NCBI RefSeq assembly: GCF_014201505.1
Contig: NZ_JACHEO010000006.1
Coordinates: 62,001 to 126,000, forward strand
Origin: Desulfoprunum benzoelyticum
GTDB lineage: Bacteria; Desulfobacterota; Desulfobulbia; Desulfobulbales; Desulfocapsaceae
DNA length: 64,000 nt
Reading direction: 5' to 3'
Both the position numbers and the translations under genes were made by a program. The notes under the pieces were generated by a model. That model saw nothing but the letters and a program-made list of their open reading frames with translations. It was not told the DNA's origin and did no database searches. This document shows, piece by piece, positions 3,199 through 11,060 of the stretch. Positions within the stretch are counted from its first letter, which is position 1; each line of letters starts with the position of its first letter.

Positions 3199-4713
3199 TC
3201 ATTTTTTCGACGCCTTGCCGTCGAGTTTATCATAGAGTTTGAGGTGTTCGTGGAGGCGATACAGTTGTTCGGTCGTCTGGTAGCGACCGTCGGCAAACAC
3301 CCCGTAGTCGCCGCCGCCGGCCATCGCCGAGGCAAACCGCGTCGTGTTGGCGTTGAACAGCCAGATCGAGGTCCACATCCGTTCCGCTTCCTCGTCGAAG
3401 ATATTGTCCTTCTGCGGCAGGCCGCGGGCATGGCCCCTCTCCCAGATATCCATGATGATCCTGGTGGCTTCATGGGTATTGGCGTTGGTGCGGGCGATGG
3501 TGTTGTCGAGGCGGAGGAAGTGTTCGTCGACCCAGCCTGTGGCGTGACAGGACAGACAGATCGTCTTCATCCTGGTGTTGCGCACCTCCTGCTCCTCCCT
3601 GGTGATGACATGGGCGGCGACCGCAGTGCCGTCCATCTCCACCGCCAGGGGCAGGCCGATGGAGTTGCGCACCTCCTTGAGATCGGCATGGACCGGGTGG
3701 GGATGGGCATAAGGGACGCCGAACAACCGCCAGGCCAGACGGTCGTTGAACTGATGGGTCCGCTCGGCGATGACCGTCTGATCGGGTGACACCAGCAGGC
3801 TGGCGTGGCAGGCGGCACAGGTCGGGGCGGTGAAATCCTTGCCGACGACCCACGGCACGTTGTCGAAATTATAGTTTTTCCCCAGGGAATTATAGATGTT
3901 GCCATGCTTGCTGACTTCATAGACCTTGTAGGCCGGGACATCCGGCCCCTTGTGGCACTCCGAGCAGGTGTACGGTTTGCGCGCCATCTCGATGGAAAAC
4001 TCGTGGCGGCCGTGACAGGCGGTGCAGGCGCCCCGGCTGCCGTCGGGATTGATGCGGCCGACCCCCTGATTGGGCCAGCCTTCAAGGACCGGGAACTCCA
4101 GCTCGCCGTAGTCCGACTCCCTGGTCGCCATCCCCTTGACCTCGATCCTGGTGCCGTGGCAGTACAGGCATGACTCGTATTCGGTGCGGTCGTCGATCTC
4201 CCCCTTCACCAGCTCGCCGTCCTGCCGCTGATAGGTGGTGTTGACGGCAGCGATGAAATCACGGTACAGGCTGTTGTCGACCAGATTGCCGTAGGCATGG
4301 GCCATGATATTCTTGCCATATTGAGCGACCTCGGTGCTGTGGCAGGTGGCGCAGTCATCCGGGCTGACGACGACGTTGATCTTGTAGCCGTTATGGTCGA
4401 AGGAGTCGGCATGACGGTCGGGGCGCAGCGAATGGCACTCGTAGCAGCCGACGACCACGTCCCGCAGCGGTTCGGCAATCTCCGTCGCCGACACCCGTCG
4501 ACTGATCGCCTCCTGCTGCAGCGCGCCCGCCGGCGTCGTCCGGCTGTGGCGGCTCTTCTCCCAGGAGGCCACCAGCCCGGGATGCAATTCGCGGTGGCAA
4601 CCAAGACACTCCTCGGTTTCCGGACTGATACCGGCATCCTCCCCGTGGGTGGTGACGGCCGCAGCCAGGATAAGAGAAGCGGACAGCAGCAAGCGAGATA
4701 ACAAGCTCTTCAT
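3199..4713 (-). CDS. Octaheme c-type cytochrome, hydroxylamine oxidoreductase-like
   Basis: The 504-residue product has a Sec signal peptide (about residues 1-24) and eight CXXCH heme-binding motifs: CLGCH 36, CYECH 90, CATCH 121, CLYCH 182, CTACH 230, CSECH 250, CAACH 299 and CLSCH 386. Eight hemes with this spacing, followed by a long C-terminal helical region ending in a GGGDYG motif, match the octaheme HAO (hydroxylamine dehydrogenase-like) family. It should be a periplasmic redox enzyme acting on a small nitrogen or sulfur compound. In anaerobes, HAO-like proteins without the cross-linked catalytic Tyr are thought to act reductively; I cannot settle the Tyr without an alignment. GGGGGAA lies upstream of the ATG. 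No quinol-linked partner (NapC/NrfH type) is adjacent. A two-component system follows on the same strand. Confidence 0.85.
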   Translation of the reverse strand: MKSLLSRLLLSASLILAAAVTTHGEDAGISPETEECLGCHRELHPGLVASWEKSRHSRTTPAGALQQEAISRRVSATEIAEPLRDVVVGCYECHSLRPDRHADSFDHNGYKINVVVSPDDCATCHSTEVAQYGKNIMAHAYGNLVDNSLYRDFIAAVNTTYQRQDGELVKGEIDDRTEYESCLYCHGTRIEVKGMATRESDYGELEFPVLEGWPNQGVGRINPDGSRGACTACHGRHEFSIEMARKPYTCSECHKGPDVPAYKVYEVSKHGNIYNSLGKNYNFDNVPWVVGKDFTAPTCAACHASLLVSPDQTVIAERTHQFNDRLAWRLFGVPYAHPHPVHADLKEVRNSIGLPLAVEMDGTAVAAHVITREEQEVRNTRMKTICLSCHATGWVDEHFLRLDNTIARTNANTHEATRIIMDIWERGHARGLPQKDNIFDEEAERMWTSIWLFNANTTRFASAMAGGGDYGVFADGRYQTTEQLYRLHEHLKLYDKLDGKASKK

Positions 4714-5426
4714 GGAATATTCCCCCGTCGGTGTTTATGGCGTCTGATCACGGCCGCCGGCCTTGACCCTTGCGGTCTTCAAAGTAGCTCGATGGGAAGC
4801 AATCGAAAATCGATATCCCGATCCGGCATACAGTCGATTTGCGATTGTTTCGGATCCAGGCGGCTACATCGGGAAGACAATTCGTCAGCATCATCGACCC
4901 GGCCAGTCAACCTGCCCATATTGCATTCATTTCTGATTTGATCACAATGACATGGCAGTTGGCAAGTTCTTCTCCGCTTTTTCCCGGCAAGGCGGAGAAA
5001 ATCCGGCCGGTCCCAACCCCCCAACCTCCCTTTCATTACGCCGGCATTTCTTGACAACCATCATTTACAACAAATCATTACAACCCATCTTGACAGCATG
5101 ATGACAATACCACAATATAACATATACACATAATTTCCCACAACGATCGTGGACCACTGCTCTCAGTTCTCGAGAGGCGGATGCGTTATCGGCCCCGAAG
5201 GACCCATTCAGGGTTTTGAAATCTTGACGCCACCCGTCGACCCCAACGGCAATGGGACCATGCGGCAAATCCAGGCCTTCCGACTGGTCCGTGAAAGCAA
5301 AGGGAAAAAGGCGACGATGCCGAACCGGTCGCTCTCCATCCCGGAACAGGGATGAAGGGATTGATCAAAAATCAACAGGCTGCCGGGTCAATTGCTCAAT
5401 TCACAACAACAATCAAGGGAGACGAC
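4714..5426. other. Long divergent intergenic region between octaheme cytochrome and selenoprotein genes
   Basis: About 700 bp without a convincing gene separates two divergently transcribed redox genes. The stretch 5045-5135 is much more A+T-rich than its surroundings and contains two TTGACA hexamers, at 5051-5056 and 5090-5095, compatible with -35 elements of tandem promoters reading right. The matching -10 hexamers are imperfect (CAATAT at 17-bp spacing for the second). Short open frames here show no codon bias or family resemblance. Confidence 0.45.
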
Positions 5427-6785
5427 ATGAAAAAAGGAGAAAAACTGGTAATTGTGGGATGCAGTGGTTCAGGCGGCCCCGCCGCCATGATGGCAAAAAA
5501 ACTCATGCCGGAAATCGATGTCACCATCATTCGCAAAGAGGAGTTCTTCATCGTCAGATGAGCGCTTCCGCATGTCGTAGCCGGTCTGGCTGCCAGTAAA
5601 TCAATTGTTGTTCCCGATACGATGCTTGCAGGCATGGGTATTCATGTTGTTCAGGATGAAGTGACCAGGGTGGACGCCGCTCAAAAGGCTGTTTTTGTAT
5701 CCGGCGGCGGTACATATCCCTATGACAAGCTCTACCTGGCGACCGGGTCCAGTTCGTTTGTCCCGCCGATCGAAGGCAGGGATCTCGCAGGCGTCATGAC
5801 CTTGCGGGGGCTCCCCGATGCCGAGAAGATCAAGACCTGGCTGGCCGAAAAAAAACCCAAACACATCGTATGTATCGGCGCTGGTTTCATCAGCATGGAG
5901 ATCGCGTCGCTGCTGGCGGAGACCAACCCCGACAGCTTCGCTATCACCGTCGTCGAACTGATGGATCGACCGCTTCCCCTGATGCTCGACAAAGACATGA
6001 GCGATGTTGTCCGGGAATATCTCGAGGGCAAAGGTCTGCAAATCCGGACAGGAGTAAAGGTCGAAAAGCTGACAGGACAAGACGGGAAAGTCACCGGCGT
6101 TACTCTGTCTTCCGGCGAAACCCTTGACGCCGACATGGTGTTCATGAATGTCGGGGTGCGCCCCAACACGCAGCTCGCCACCGATATCGGCCTCGAGATG
6201 GGGCGGTTCGGGATCAAGGTCAACGCCTATCAGGAGACGTCCGATCCACACATCCTGGCCGGCGGGGACTGTGTTGAAAAAATCAATTTCATCACCGGCA
6301 AACCGACGCCGGGACAACTGAGGGGGCCGGCGGTGGTCCAGGGTCGGTTGGCCGCCAAACGGCTTGCCGGGTTCGATATCGCCTTCCCCGGGGTACTCGA
6401 TGCCGGCGGCTGCAAGATGTTTGACATGACGATCGCCGCCACCGGACTCACCGAAGAAAACGCGATCAGAGAGGGGTTTACTCCCGTGAGTGCCGTCGTT
6501 GACTCCCGCAGCAAACATGGCATGATTCCCGGGATGAAGCCGTGGAAGTTGAAATTGGTGTTTGACAAAAACACCCGCAAACTGCTCGGCGGCCAGATCG
6601 TCAGCCAGGCCATCGCCCCTGCCAGAGAAATCGATGCCGTTACCGCATGTATCCTCGGCGGGAAAACCATGGCTGACCTGACGACGTTCACATCGGCCTG
6701 CAACCCGGACATCTCCTCCGAACCGAGCGCCGAGCCGATAACGATTGCCGCCGAACAGGCGCTGCAGAAGGTCAGGAACGGCTAA
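5427..6785 (+). CDS. Selenocysteine-containing FAD/NAD(P) disulfide oxidoreductase (CoA-disulfide reductase / NADH oxidase-like)
   Basis: The gene is an ATG-started frame (GGGAG 7 bases upstream) interrupted only by TGA at 5559-5561, codon 45, after which the same frame continues to 6785. Read through, it gives 452 residues, the normal length of the CoA-disulfide reductase/NADH oxidase family. Visible parts are an N-terminal dinucleotide fold (IVGCSGSGGPAAM), FFIVR-U-ALPHVVAG, a second NAD(P)-binding fold (CIGAGFISMEIA), an FAD site (GGDCVEKI) and the C-terminal dimerisation domain. In the family the residue at the TGA is the redox cysteine that attacks the disulfide or peroxide substrate, so selenocysteine is the natural reading. 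A SECIS-like hairpin lies at 5577-5593. The substrate is unknown. A sequencing error is the main alternative, made unlikely by the hairpin. Confidence 0.85.
5577..5593 (+). promoter_or_regulatory. Bacterial SECIS element
   Basis: The sequence GTAGCC-GGTCT-GGCTGC forms a 6-bp stem (one G-U pair) closed by a GGUCU loop. It begins 15 nt after the TGA at 5559-5561 and lies within the coding frame. The E. coli fdhF SECIS also has a short stem with GGUCU at the apex, about 11 nt after UGA; the GU of this loop is what SelB recognises. Position and loop both fit. Confidence 0.8.
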
Positions 6786-6934: not shown

Positions 6935-8347
6935 ATGCCCGAAGCAACCTCGGACGAGGGGCGAGCCACGGCGATGGGTACGAAAAAACCAGCGAACACG
7001 ACACCCGCCTCAACCGAAGCGATCCTCGAGAGCATCTCCGATGGAGTCTTTACGGTCGACAGGGATTGGAACGTGGCATCGTTCAACCGGGCCGCCGAGG
7101 AGATTACCGGCATCCCCCGTCGGGAGGCGATCGGCCGGCCGTGCTCGGAGGTCCTCCGTTCGAACATGTGCGGCGACCACTGCCCCCTCCAGCAGACCCT
7201 CACAAGCGGCCGCCCGATTATCGGCAGATCCGGCTATTTCATCAATGCCGACGGAGACCGCATCCCGATCAGCATCTCCACCGCCGTCCTGCGTGATAGT
7301 GGCGGCACGGTCATCGGCGGGGCGGAGACATTTCGCGATCTCTCCGAGGTCGAGGCACTGCGCCAGGAACTCAACGGCAAGGCCCACGTCGGCGACCTGA
7401 CCAGCAGGAGCCCGGTGATGCAGAAACTGTTCGCCATCCTGCCGGCCATCGCCGCCAGTCCAAGCACGGTCCTCGTCCTTGGCGAAACCGGCACCGGCAA
7501 GGAACTGGTGGCCCATACCCTCCATGACCTCAGCCCCCGCAGCCGCAGGCCGTTCATCGCCGTCAACTGCGGGGCCCTGCCCGACACCCTGCTCGAATCG
7601 GAGCTTTTCGGCTACAAGGCCGGGGCCTTCACCGGAGCGGCCAAGGACAAACAGGGACGTTTCGCCCTGGCCGAGGGCGGAACGATCTTCCTCGACGAGA
7701 TCGGTGATATCACTCCTGCCCTCCAGGTCAGATTGCTGAGGGTGTTGCAGGAAAAATGCTACGAACCTCTCGGCGCCGTTCGGTCGGAGACGACCAATGC
7801 CAGGGTCGTCGTCGCCACCAACAGAGATCTCACCGCACTGGTCAAAAAGGATCTCTTCCGTGAAGATCTCTACTATCGCATCAACATCATCCGCATCGAG
7901 CTGCCGGCCCTGCGGCACCGCAAGGAAGACATCCCGCTGCTGGTCGACCGCTTCATCGACCGCTTCAACCGGCGGCAGCAAAAAGCCGTCACCGGCATCA
8001 GTACGGAGGCCCTGTCCCTGCTGATGACCCACGACTGGCCCGGCAACATCCGGGAACTGGAAAATCTCGTCGAACGGGCCTTCATTCTCTGTACGGAGGG
8101 GAACATCGACCTTGCCCACCTCCCCGGCGAACTGCTTCCCCATCACCCGGCAACGGCCGGGAAATCCAACCTGCGGACCGTCCGCTCCACCGTCGACGCC
8201 CAGGCGATCCAGACAGCGCTGGAGCGCAACGGTTTCAACCGCCTGGCAGCGGCCCGGGAATTGGGTATTCATAAAACGACCCTGTTCCGCCGGCTCAAAA
8301 AACTCGGCATACCCCTGCCGGTCAAGGACGGACGCAACCGCCGCTAA
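6935..8347 (+). CDS. Sigma-54-dependent transcriptional activator with N-terminal PAS domain
   Basis: The 470-residue product has a PAS domain (about residues 25-145, ISDGVFTVDRDWN), a sigma-54 interaction AAA+ domain with Walker A GETGTGKE near 183, the GAFTGA loop that contacts sigma-54, Walker B (TIFLDEIGD), and a Fis-type helix-turn-helix at the C-terminus (RLAAARELGIHKTTLFRRL). There is no receiver domain, so it responds directly to a small molecule, metal center or redox state sensed by the PAS domain. The PAS contains a CGDHC pair of cysteines near residues 75-79. The obvious target is the -24/-12 promoter about 150 bp downstream of its stop codon. An internal ATG at 6974 is an alternative start. 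Confidence 0.92.
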   Translation: MPEATSDEGRATAMGTKKPANTTPASTEAILESISDGVFTVDRDWNVASFNRAAEEITGIPRREAIGRPCSEVLRSNMCGDHCPLQQTLTSGRPIIGRSGYFINADGDRIPISISTAVLRDSGGTVIGGAETFRDLSEVEALRQELNGKAHVGDLTSRSPVMQKLFAILPAIAASPSTVLVLGETGTGKELVAHTLHDLSPRSRRPFIAVNCGALPDTLLESELFGYKAGAFTGAAKDKQGRFALAEGGTIFLDEIGDITPALQVRLLRVLQEKCYEPLGAVRSETTNARVVVATNRDLTALVKKDLFREDLYYRINIIRIELPALRHRKEDIPLLVDRFIDRFNRRQQKAVTGISTEALSLLMTHDWPGNIRELENLVERAFILCTEGNIDLAHLPGELLPHHPATAGKSNLRTVRSTVDAQAIQTALERNGFNRLAAARELGIHKTTLFRRLKKLGIPLPVKDGRNRR

Positions 8348-8492
8348 GTTTGACAGTAGCCTTTTCGCACCACAATTATGACTGGTACAGGGGCGTTGTT
8401 GCTTTCCTGCGACGTCCTCGGCTCCGCATTCCCTCGATTTTTACAGTTTAAAATTAGATATTTACATACCTATCGGCTGCTATCTGATACTC

Positions 8493-8508
8493 TGGCACTA
8501 CTTTTGCT
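8493..8508 (+). promoter_or_regulatory. Sigma-54 (-24/-12) promoter
   Basis: TGGCAC-TACTT-TTGCT matches the sigma-54 consensus TGGCAC-N5-TTGC exactly in both conserved blocks and in spacing. It lies 29 bases before the ATG of the NifX-like gene and just after the gene for a sigma-54 activator. The 145 bp upstream are A+T-rich in part and would hold the activator sites; an imperfect inverted repeat GTTGC-N6-GCGAC near 8398-8413 is a weak candidate. Confidence 0.9.
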
Positions 8509-8536
8509 TATACTATTACAACGGAGGGGAGATCTG

Positions 8537-9022
8537 ATGAAAACGGCCTTTCCATACTGGCGCCATCGCATCGCCCCGGTGTTCGATACCGCCCGGCAGA
8601 TCCTGGTTGTGACGTCGGACGCGGGGATGACCACCGGCAAGACCGAGGTGACTCTGGCGGATGGCCACCCGACCGCGAAGCTTCTGCCCCTGGTTGAATT
8701 ACAGGTTGACAGCCTTGTCTGCGGCGCGATCTCCAGCCAGGTTCGCCAGATGGCCGTGTTCTACGGAATCACGGTTGTTCCCTTTATCGCCGGTGATCTT
8801 GACGCCATCGTACGCCTCTGGCTGGCCGGGAAACTTGCCGGTGACGCCAATGCGATGCCGGGTTGCCGCCGGCGCTGGGGGAGACGGTCGCGAGACGCTT
8901 CTTTGGAGAACGTCGCACCTGAGGAGCTCAAGGCGCAAAACGAACCGCAAGACCGCCTCCGAATTGCACGGCACGGCAGACATTCAGCCTGCCAGGCCGC
9001 AGCCAGGCGGCGGAAAATATGA
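8537..9022 (+). CDS. NifX/NifB-associated dinitrogenase iron-molybdenum cofactor-binding family protein
   Basis: The 161-residue product begins with the alpha/beta fold of the NifX/NafY/NifB C-terminal family: an N-terminal strand (RIAPVFDTARQILVV), then LVELQVDSLVCGAIS, VVPFIAGDLDAIVRLWLAG and an AMPGC end. Proteins of this family bind iron-sulfur or Fe-Mo clusters; stand-alone copies outside nitrogenase operons are common in sulfate reducers and have no settled function. The C-terminal 50 residues are Arg/Gln-rich and probably disordered. The start at 8537 follows AGGGGAG with good spacing and sits just behind the sigma-54 promoter. It leads a cluster with the DUF5320 and metallo-hydrolase genes. 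Confidence 0.8.
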   Translation: MKTAFPYWRHRIAPVFDTARQILVVTSDAGMTTGKTEVTLADGHPTAKLLPLVELQVDSLVCGAISSQVRQMAVFYGITVVPFIAGDLDAIVRLWLAGKLAGDANAMPGCRRRWGRRSRDASLENVAPEELKAQNEPQDRLRIARHGRHSACQAAARRRKI

Positions 9023-9046
9023 ATCTTCACCGAAGGGGGTAGCACC

Positions 9047-9427
9047 ATGCCACGAGGAGACGGAACAGGCCCAATGGGAGCCGGGACAATGACAGGCCAT
9101 GGCGGCGGGTACTGTGCAGGCACTGGAGTTCCAGGTTTTGCAGGGACATTTGGCGGACGCGGCGCCGGCGCCGGATTCGGGCGCAACTGTCCAACTTGGG
9201 GTCAGGGTCTGGGATTCGGCGCCGGCCGCTGGGGACGGCGGAACATGCCGGCGATCGCCGGGGTGTCCGGCCGTTTGCGTTTCGGCGGCTATGGCGTCCC
9301 GCAGGCCCAGCCGGGACCCGAGCAGGAAAAGAATATCCTGAGAAACCAGGCCGAGGCCCTCAAGGCCGACCTGGAAATCATCACCAGACGCCTCCAGGAC
9401 CTCGAAACGGAAGCGGCCGACGAATAG
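9047..9427 (+). CDS. DUF5320-type glycine-rich protein
   Basis: The 126-residue product opens with MPRGDGTGPMGAGTMTG, the typical start of DUF5320 proteins. It continues with a Gly-rich low-complexity stretch carrying two Cys (residues 24 and 46), and ends in a predicted coiled coil (about 90-122, KNILRNQAEALKADLEIITR). These small proteins travel with NifX-like and Mrp/NBP35-type genes, suggesting a role in metal-cluster handling, but their biochemistry is unknown. It begins 24 bp after the NifX-like gene with GAAGGGGG before the ATG, so it is almost certainly cotranscribed from the sigma-54 promoter. Confidence 0.8.
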   Translation: MPRGDGTGPMGAGTMTGHGGGYCAGTGVPGFAGTFGGRGAGAGFGRNCPTWGQGLGFGAGRWGRRNMPAIAGVSGRLRFGGYGVPQAQPGPEQEKNILRNQAEALKADLEIITRRLQDLETEAADE

Positions 9428-9509
9428 GCAGCCGGGGCGATGCTCTTGTCTGGTTCCGAAAACCGGCGGAGCATCCCGACTTTCATACCATGAAAGAGAT
9501 CATGCAAAG

Positions 9510-10346
9510 ATGACAACCGCTCCGACCCGGATCACCATCCTGATCGACAATCAAGCTGTCGCCGGCTGCAAGGCCGAGCACGGTTTTTCGCTGTGGCTTG
9601 AAACCGGAGGTCGGCGGATCCTGTTCGACACCGGGCAGGGCGAAGCCTTCCTTGGCAACGCCGAGACCCTCGGGATCGATCCGGGCCTGGCGGACACCAT
9701 CGTCCTGAGCCACGGCCATTACGACCACAGCGGCGGGCTGCCGCAGATCCTCAGACGGGCGAGAAAGGCCGATCTGTACTGCCACCCGGCGATTGTCTCA
9801 TCGCGGTACAGTATCCGCAACGGCACCCCGCGAGATCTCCGAATGCCGTCGGCATCGCTGATCGCCCTTCACCGGCTGCCGCTGGAACGCCTGCACTGGA
9901 TGCAACGGCCGCACTCCCTGACCGGGACCATCGGCCTGAGCGGCCCGATCCCGCGGGTCTCCGGATTCGAAGATACGGGCGGGCCGTTTTTCCTCGACCG
10001 CCAGGGACAGCGGCCCGACCCGATCGATGACGACCTCGCCCTCTGGGTGCGCACCGAAAGCGGATTGATCGTGGTCGTCGGCTGCGCCCACGCCGGCCTG
10101 GTCAACACCCTGCTCCATGCCCGGCAATGCAACGACGACCTGCCGATCAGGGCCGTCATCGGCGGCTTTCATCTGCTCAATGCCGCCTCCCGGCGCCTGG
10201 AGCAAACCATTGCGGCCCTGCGCGAATTGTCACCGGAGCGCATCATCCCCTGTCACTGCACGGGCGGAGTTGCCGTAACCGCTCTCCACCACGCCTTTGG
10301 CGATCGTGTCTTGCCGGGAGCTGCCGGGGCACGGTATATCTTGTAA
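9510..10346 (+). CDS. Metallo-beta-lactamase-fold hydrolase
   Basis: The 278-residue protein has the metal-binding signature SHGHYDHSGG (HxHxDH, about residues 66-75), a later GCAHAGLVN motif supplying another His, and a final IPCHCTGG His. This arrangement matches MBL-fold proteins annotated as related to the archaeal ribofuranosyl-aminobenzene phosphate synthase. Such genes often accompany NifX-like/DUF5320 clusters, so a link to cofactor or iron-sulfur chemistry is plausible but unproven. It starts 82 bp after the DUF5320 gene in the same direction. No signal peptide is visible, so it is cytoplasmic. The substrate is not predictable. Confidence 0.8.
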   Translation: MTTAPTRITILIDNQAVAGCKAEHGFSLWLETGGRRILFDTGQGEAFLGNAETLGIDPGLADTIVLSHGHYDHSGGLPQILRRARKADLYCHPAIVSSRYSIRNGTPRDLRMPSASLIALHRLPLERLHWMQRPHSLTGTIGLSGPIPRVSGFEDTGGPFFLDRQGQRPDPIDDDLALWVRTESGLIVVVGCAHAGLVNTLLHARQCNDDLPIRAVIGGFHLLNAASRRLEQTIAALRELSPERIIPCHCTGGVAVTALHHAFGDRVLPGAAGARYIL

Positions 10347-10429
10347 CAGATCAACCGGATACAGAGAAGGATCGTTGCGCCGTTGACGGGTTATGACAGT
10401 TTTTTCATCAGACCTTGCGTTTCTCCGAC

Positions 10430-10459
10430 TTGACAGACCCCCGCCGATTCAGCTATCAC
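10430..10459 (+). promoter_or_regulatory. Candidate sigma-70 promoter for NifU-like gene
   Basis: TTGACA at 10430-10435 is followed after 18 bp by TATCAC. It lies about 180 bp upstream of the NifU-like ATG, in a 294-bp gap after the metallo-hydrolase gene. The -35 is perfect, the -10 matches four of six bases, so support is moderate. Confidence 0.4.
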
Positions 10460-10640
10460 TGACATCGAATCAGGCATATACTCACAACCCCGCCGTTGCC
10501 TTCCCCCCCCCCGGCCAGGCACACGCCACTGACCGGAGGACGAGAAACGACGGCCGGTGCTTGCAGGATCGATCCCTTCGAACTTCATTCCCGCCTTCCC
10601 GACCAGGAGAGGCCATACCGGAGAAACAAAGAGAACAACC

Positions 10641-11060
10641 ATGGACACACATCTCAGCGGACAGGTGCATTCGGAACACTACATCGACATGGCCTCCAGG
10701 ACCAACCGCCTTGGAATCCTGGAACATCCGGACGGTTACGGCAAACGGATCGGCGACTGCGGTGACGTCATCGAGGTGTATCTGTCCGTTCTCGGCGGTC
10801 ATATTCAGATGGTTTCATTCCAGATCCAGGGCTGCCTGAACACCAACGCCTGCGCCAATACACTGGCTCTTCTGGTTGAAGGGAGAAGCGTTGCCGACAG
10901 CTGGCAGGTCACCCCGGACGACCTGATCGACTACCTGGAGACCCTGCCGGCCGATCACACCCACTGTGCCGAGCTGGTGGTCGGGGCCTTTTATCTCGCG
11001 CTCAGCAATTACAGCGCCAGCGGAAATGACTCCTGGCAGAAACCCTATCGGCAGGGGTGA
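10641..11060 (+). CDS. NifU/IscU-like iron-sulfur scaffold protein
   Basis: The 139-residue product matches the NifU N-terminal/IscU scaffold: GDCGDVIEVYL supplies the first Cys, GCLNTNACANTLALL the second region, and HCAELVVGAFYLAL the third. Scaffolds assemble 2Fe-2S or 4Fe-4S clusters on three conserved cysteines before passing them to apoproteins. No cysteine desulfurase gene is adjacent, and the typical C-terminal NifU domain is absent. The start at 10641 follows a weak GAGA-type ribosome site; the open frame extends further upstream without support. Its end overlaps the 3' end of convergent moeA by 16 bp. Context suggests a dedicated maturation role for the cofactor cluster upstream (inference). 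Confidence 0.75.
   Translation: MDTHLSGQVHSEHYIDMASRTNRLGILEHPDGYGKRIGDCGDVIEVYLSVLGGHIQMVSFQIQGCLNTNACANTLALLVEGRSVADSWQVTPDDLIDYLETLPADHTHCAELVVGAFYLALSNYSASGNDSWQKPYRQG

Follow-up and report, generated by a model that had tools for sequence, protein, structure and literature searches.

A putative selenocysteine flavoprotein of the CoA-disulfide-reductase fold in Desulfoprunum benzoelyticum

In Desulfoprunum benzoelyticum, an anaerobe of the sulfate-reducer type, a flavoprotein gene that is interrupted by one in-frame TGA raises the question of whether this codon is read as selenocysteine (Sec) and, if so, what kind of enzyme the full-length protein might be. The stretch of DNA analyzed here (64,000 nucleotides, referred to as the window) was the subject of an earlier note, made from the sequence alone, which proposed Sec at the catalytic position of a protein resembling CoA-disulfide reductase (CoADR). 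We considered this proposal in light of a homologue search that took in 84,980 species genomes together with 395 genomes sampled from the same phylum.

Evidence for selenocysteine at codon 45

The gene and the elements relevant to decoding are located as follows.

5416..5421, + strand: probable ribosome-binding site AGGGAG, 5 nt ahead of the ATG (read from the sequence)
5427..6785, + strand: predicted Sec flavoprotein coding sequence, FAD/NAD(P)-disulfide-reductase fold, 452 aa, ATG start, TAA stop (homologues, Pfam, and fold)
5559..5561, + strand: UGA codon 45, predicted Sec, at the position of the family's redox Cys (TGA conserved across the clade)
5577..5593, + strand: putative SECIS hairpin, stem 5577-5582 / 5588-5593, loop GGUCU 5583-5587 (covariation, loss in L059)
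5580..5588, + strand: codons GCC-GGT-CTG (Ala52-Gly53-Leu54), invariant at the codon level, inner stem and apical loop

The frame contains a single TGA, and translating it as U gives 452 residues ending at the TAA stop, as the earlier note had described. Homologues were close to full length in more than 25 loci. Standard gene calling either stops at a UGA or begins past it, so annotated versions of the window protein are likely truncated at or after this codon.

Across homologues, the codon was strongly conserved. Every one of the 35 clade loci found that cover the site (57%–100% identity) had TGA exactly at codon 45, and this number is a lower bound for the Sec clade (at least 35). One member, L035, comes from the cultured Desulfofustis glycolicus DSM 9705. 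The nearest relative free of TGA, L059 (58% identical), has Cys at this site, as do the more distant L060–L062 (42%–44% identical). The column was invariantly Cys or Sec in 49 aligned family members and likewise in relatives from the PDB, in agreement with the claim that Sec takes the place of the family's one redox Cys; Cys homologues, which the earlier note had suggested looking for, were thus found both close by and in the wider family.

The host genome encodes the components for Sec insertion, with selA, selB, tRNA-Sec bearing a UCA anticodon (selC, also named in the earlier note as a gene to look for), and two Sec-type selD genes all present. Both selD genes themselves carry an in-frame TGA (C13:58565-59512 and C2:284195-285121). 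Among the related genomes tested (n = 15), tRNA-Sec was present in 15/15 and selB scored above the cut-off in 11/15, and we take the four genomes without selB to be incomplete assemblies. The genome containing L022 (G399) had two tRNA-Sec matches above the gathering score (C116:4750-4843 and C120:1610-1701) and is possibly a mixed bin. Since the L059 genome has both selB and tRNA-Sec, loss of the Sec machinery is ruled out as the cause of Cys in L059.

Downstream of the codon, the hairpin seen in the earlier note was recovered at the same place, with a 6-bp stem (GUAGCC/GGCUGC) and a GGUCU loop starting 15 nt past the TGA. Standard pairs made up 97.5% of hairpin pair cells in the clade, a level reached by 0/500 shuffles, and slid versions of the hairpin all had far lower pairing scores. 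Nine stem cells showed changes on both sides, consistent with covariation. Constraint was also visible in codon usage: among 110 degenerate columns with conserved amino acids in 32 full-length genes, GCC, GGT, and CTG were the only three invariant codons (the runner-up column scored 0.88). The Cys-containing sister L059 reads GUUUCCGGCCUGGUGAC at this site, with the stem absent and the loop altered. Covariation and codon-level selection support the original description of the hairpin as SECIS-like.

The set of sel genes, the conserved TGA, the Sec/Cys pairing among homologues, and a covarying, codon-frozen hairpin make Sec insertion as sure as sequence permits, and we predict with near certainty that host SelA, SelB, SelC, and SelD decode UGA45 as Sec via the GGUCU hairpin. 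A true stop, sequencing error, or pseudogene mutation would fit one broken frame considered alone, and the L043 locus does hold a clade member that is cut short and lacks the Sec region, but the recurrence of TGA at this codon across 35 loci, frames that stay intact downstream, the frozen SECIS, and the full sel machinery leave this explanation vanishingly improbable. Just as negligible is the reading of UGA as another amino acid, such as Trp, or general recoding, for which we found no supporting point and against which stand the ordinary use of TGA as a stop by several window genes (PAS kinase, octaheme cytochrome, hslU, hslV, and xerC), the UCA anticodon of the host tRNA-Sec, and the presence of Cys rather than Trp in homologues.

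Fold, active-site residues, and predicted chemistry

Residues that bear on the type of enzyme are located as follows.

5457..5474, + strand: FAD-binding loop G11-C-S-G-S-G16, with the Cys12 codon at 5460-5462 (alignment)
5571..5573, + strand: His49, in U-x-x-P-H (alignment)
5877..5894, + strand: NAD(P)H-binding GxGxxx loop G151-A-G-F-I-S156 (Pfam PF00070 at 146-228, and alignment)
6516..6518, + strand: His364 in S-[KR]-H-G/A-M-I-P, in place of the CoADR YYPG tyrosine segment (alignment)
6699..6701, + strand: C-terminal interface-loop residue Cys425, occupying the site of Tyr419 in CoADR (alignment)

The 452-residue protein contains the Pfam domains Pyr_redox_2, Pyr_redox, and Pyr_redox_dim, and the domain search found no rhodanese domain within it. 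An AlphaFold2 model had a pLDDT of 93.5, and over the whole length of this model the best Foldseek matches were persulfide reductase and CoADR structures (E 1e-48, TM 0.91). As modeled, the window protein is of the CoA-disulfide/persulfide-reductase fold, with two dinucleotide domains and a dimerization domain. The CoADR-like character proposed earlier therefore holds for the fold, although the curated CoADR cut-offs were missed, with a TIGR03385 score of 263.8 bits against a cut-off of 578.8 and other CoADR models likewise under their cut-offs. The YYPG and YAPP tyrosines of CoADR were also absent, with Tyr in positions 360–370 or 420–432 in 0/28 clade members. With scores below the curated cut-offs and both catalytic tyrosines missing, CoADR by family membership is ruled out. 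Since the PDB holds CoADR Y361F and Y419F mutants, both tyrosines have been studied as catalytic; among the papers searched, none directly addressed these tyrosines.

Comparison with characterized relatives shows a common scaffold with a distinct set of active-site residues. CoADR (S. aureus 1yqz, P. horikoshii 4fx9, Thermus 6ruz; TIGR03385) and the window protein share the fold, the FAD and NAD sites, and the placement of a lone redox residue within the same helix, but this residue is Cys in CoADR and Sec here, and the window protein lacks Tyr361 and Tyr419 of the S. aureus enzyme and has a Cys in the C-terminal loop. The persulfide reductases of A. fulgidus (6pfz) and Shewanella (3nta) are the best fold match (TM 0.91), but are ~90–110 residues longer and have Cys, whereas the window protein has Sec and no extra C-terminal part. 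NADH peroxidase and water-forming NADH oxidase (1npx, 5er0; 24%–29% identity) have the common fold and a single redox residue by the flavin, which is Cys in these enzymes, while in the window protein it is Sec with Arg44 and His49 around it.

Several of these residues mark the clade. Cys12 was present in 27/28 Sec members and 0/52 other rows, and His49 in 28/28 Sec members, with Tyr or Phe in all remaining rows. Arg44, preceding Sec or Cys, was found in all 28 clade members and four near Cys relatives but in 0/48 others. Somewhere in positions 420–432, all 32 clade rows carry a Cys, which none of the other 48 rows do; its position varies within the clade, being either 425 or 423 plus 428.

These features suggest that the protein is probably a Sec-containing, FAD-dependent NAD(P)H reductase that works as a stand-alone electron-transfer enzyme. 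With a little less assurance, we predict the order of transfer from NADH to acceptor: NADH would reduce FAD, FAD would reduce oxidized Sec45, and Sec45 would in turn reduce the acceptor. At somewhat less than even odds, the oxidized enzyme may rest as a selenenylsulfide formed with one of its own Cys residues instead of with CoA, the partner in CoADR. That Cys would be either the C-terminal-loop Cys of the other subunit (423, 425, or 428) or Cys12 of the same subunit, and the shifts in position of the loop Cys weaken the case for strict geometric pairing with Sec. In relatives of this fold, the active site is completed by residues from the other subunit (PMC6026696), which together with the CoADR mutants makes pairing of Sec with a Cys, either one of the other subunit or Cys12, a testable proposal. 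The physiological acceptor may be peroxide, or a disulfide or peroxiredoxin arising from peroxide stress, an assignment to which we give slightly less than an even chance, with persulfide or polysulfide as the main alternative.

Neighboring genes and the possible acceptor

Three neighbors of the flavoprotein gene bear on the choice of acceptor.

3199..4713, - strand: octaheme c-type cytochrome with eight CXXCH motifs, divergently transcribed; not conserved beside homologues
5173..5316, + strand: remains of a decayed peroxiredoxin gene covering about residues 123-170, immediately upstream of the flavoprotein gene (tblastn E 1e-14)
6935..8347, + strand: PAS / sigma-54 activator; a similar gene lies directly upstream in L048 only

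No conserved operon partner was found among 28 loci compared. The earlier note drew a redox or peroxide role from the octaheme cytochrome on the opposite strand and the PAS activator that follows. Both genes are real, but homologues do not share these neighbors, so the role inferred from them carries little weight, and on these grounds the two genes are ruled out as functional partners. The peroxide part of the suggestion finds better footing in the upstream peroxiredoxin remnant and in the stress genes that accompany homologues.

The remnant matched a sequence in its own genome with an E value of 1e-13. A longer decayed Sec-peroxiredoxin was seen at L043 (Desulfobulbus sp. Tol-SR, 4571-5831), fused to the C-terminal 277 residues of a flavoprotein whose Sec-bearing N-terminal part has been lost. 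At L033, an intact Sec-peroxiredoxin lies 865 bp downstream of the flavoprotein. The host also has an intact Sec-peroxiredoxin elsewhere (L117, G000:C1:462763-463368), between Fur/PerR-like and KatG (catalase-peroxidase)-like frames named by eye. Other stress genes near homologues, varying by locus, encode CCP_MauG (di-haem cytochrome c peroxidase), Hsp33, rubrerythrin, hybrid-cluster protein, and thioredoxin-like proteins. The neighborhood may hint at a peroxide-stress role, in a pattern that differs from locus to locus.

Elsewhere in the window, positions 8378-11060 hold a cluster of NifX-like (by eye), MBL-fold, and NifU-like genes, and a NifX-family and MBL-like pair adjoins the L050 homologue. 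An Rfam search of the window for other RNA elements returned one tRNA only, and a promoter scan gave nothing above chance.

The protein could instead be a Sec variant of an NADH-dependent persulfide or polysulfide reductase, returning sulfane sulfur to sulfide in a sulfate reducer. The fold matches keep this a serious alternative: the experimental structures nearest to it are those of persulfide reductases from A. fulgidus, Shewanella, and P. horikoshii, and the nearest solved folds act on persulfide or CoA disulfide. Clade hosts are also mostly of sulfate-reducer lineages, and HdrC-like and second CoADR-like genes adjoin the flavoprotein in L029, L030, and L032. However, the 452-aa protein is without a rhodanese domain, the tyrosines of the CoADR CoA/dimer site are missing, and some of the neighbors are peroxide and oxidative-stress genes, and we judge this reading unlikely, if still substantial. 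Under the peroxide reading, a more specific version would make the clade an unrecognized NADH:peroxiredoxin (or peroxide) reductase subfamily, using an intersubunit selenenylsulfide between Sec45 and the C-terminal-loop Cys and acting beside Sec-peroxiredoxin. This we regard as a long shot; if true, an enzyme of the CoADR fold would have converged on a chemistry known from high-Mr thioredoxin reductases, with Sec and Cys paired between subunits.

Relationship to the published Sec family

A Sec-containing CoADR/NADH oxidase has been reported from Geobacter metallireducens (PMC1794560; PMC13188914), with the published motif UGxP (PMC13188914), and reviews from 2022 and 2026 give a single COG0446/TIGR03385 Sec family. 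The mention in the earlier note of NADH-oxidase/CoADR-like selenoproteins in deltaproteobacteria was accordingly sound, but the window protein belongs to a separate branch. In a tree of 80 proteins, made with a quick method and rooted at the midpoint for drawing only, the window Sec clade comprised 28 rows (SH-aLRT 91) and stood beside the Cys proteins L059 and L060–L062, while the UGxP clade lay across a fully supported branch from the window clade and its Cys relatives. Forcing all Sec rows into one clade was rejected (p-AU 1.2e-6). On this tree, the flavoprotein superfamily therefore acquired Sec at one and the same catalytic position two or more times, a reading to be treated with caution because the method was a quick one and some distant rows have long branches.

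The two groups also differ in motif and in the residues described above. The window clade has R-U-[AS]-L-P-H (U-[AS]-L-P-H in 28/28), whereas the UGxP clade has A-U-G-x-P. The Geobacter metallireducens protein WP_011365774.1, which we placed in the UGxP clade by its motif, resembles the window protein in superfamily, Sec site, and deltaproteobacterial occurrence. However, the UGxP type keeps the YYPG and YAPP tyrosines and is without Cys12, His49, and the C-terminal-loop Cys, and the window clade shows the reverse. The host itself carries one Sec flavoprotein gene of each kind. Its second, L019 (G000:C26:33492-34844), is of the UGxP type with FAA-U-GIP; this type of gene has many Sec and Cys relatives, and those nearest to L019 (L088 and L089) have Cys.

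It could be argued that the window protein is merely another member of the published Geobacter metallireducens (UGxP) family, given the common fold, Sec position, and superfamily, the single family recognized in both reviews, and a survey (PMC12013277) whose subject, the genome of Desulfosarcina widdelii PP31, contains a clade member, L038. The full separation in the tree with rejection of a single Sec clade, the different motifs and missing tyrosines, and the co-occurrence of both kinds in the host argue against this, and we consider it improbable. The 2026 inventory recognizes 119 prokaryotic selenoprotein families and subfamilies, separating the subfamilies by Sec motif, and gives the window clade no entry of its own. 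Since that earlier survey analyzed the Desulfosarcina widdelii genome, L038 may already have been counted under an older name.

The window clade thus adds a well-supported putative Sec subfamily that the 2026 inventory does not set apart, and it points to recruitment of Sec at least twice to one catalytic site within one flavoprotein superfamily. L059 and the Sec clade together offer a natural Sec/Cys comparison, in which the companion changes at Cys12 and His49 are open to mutagenesis.
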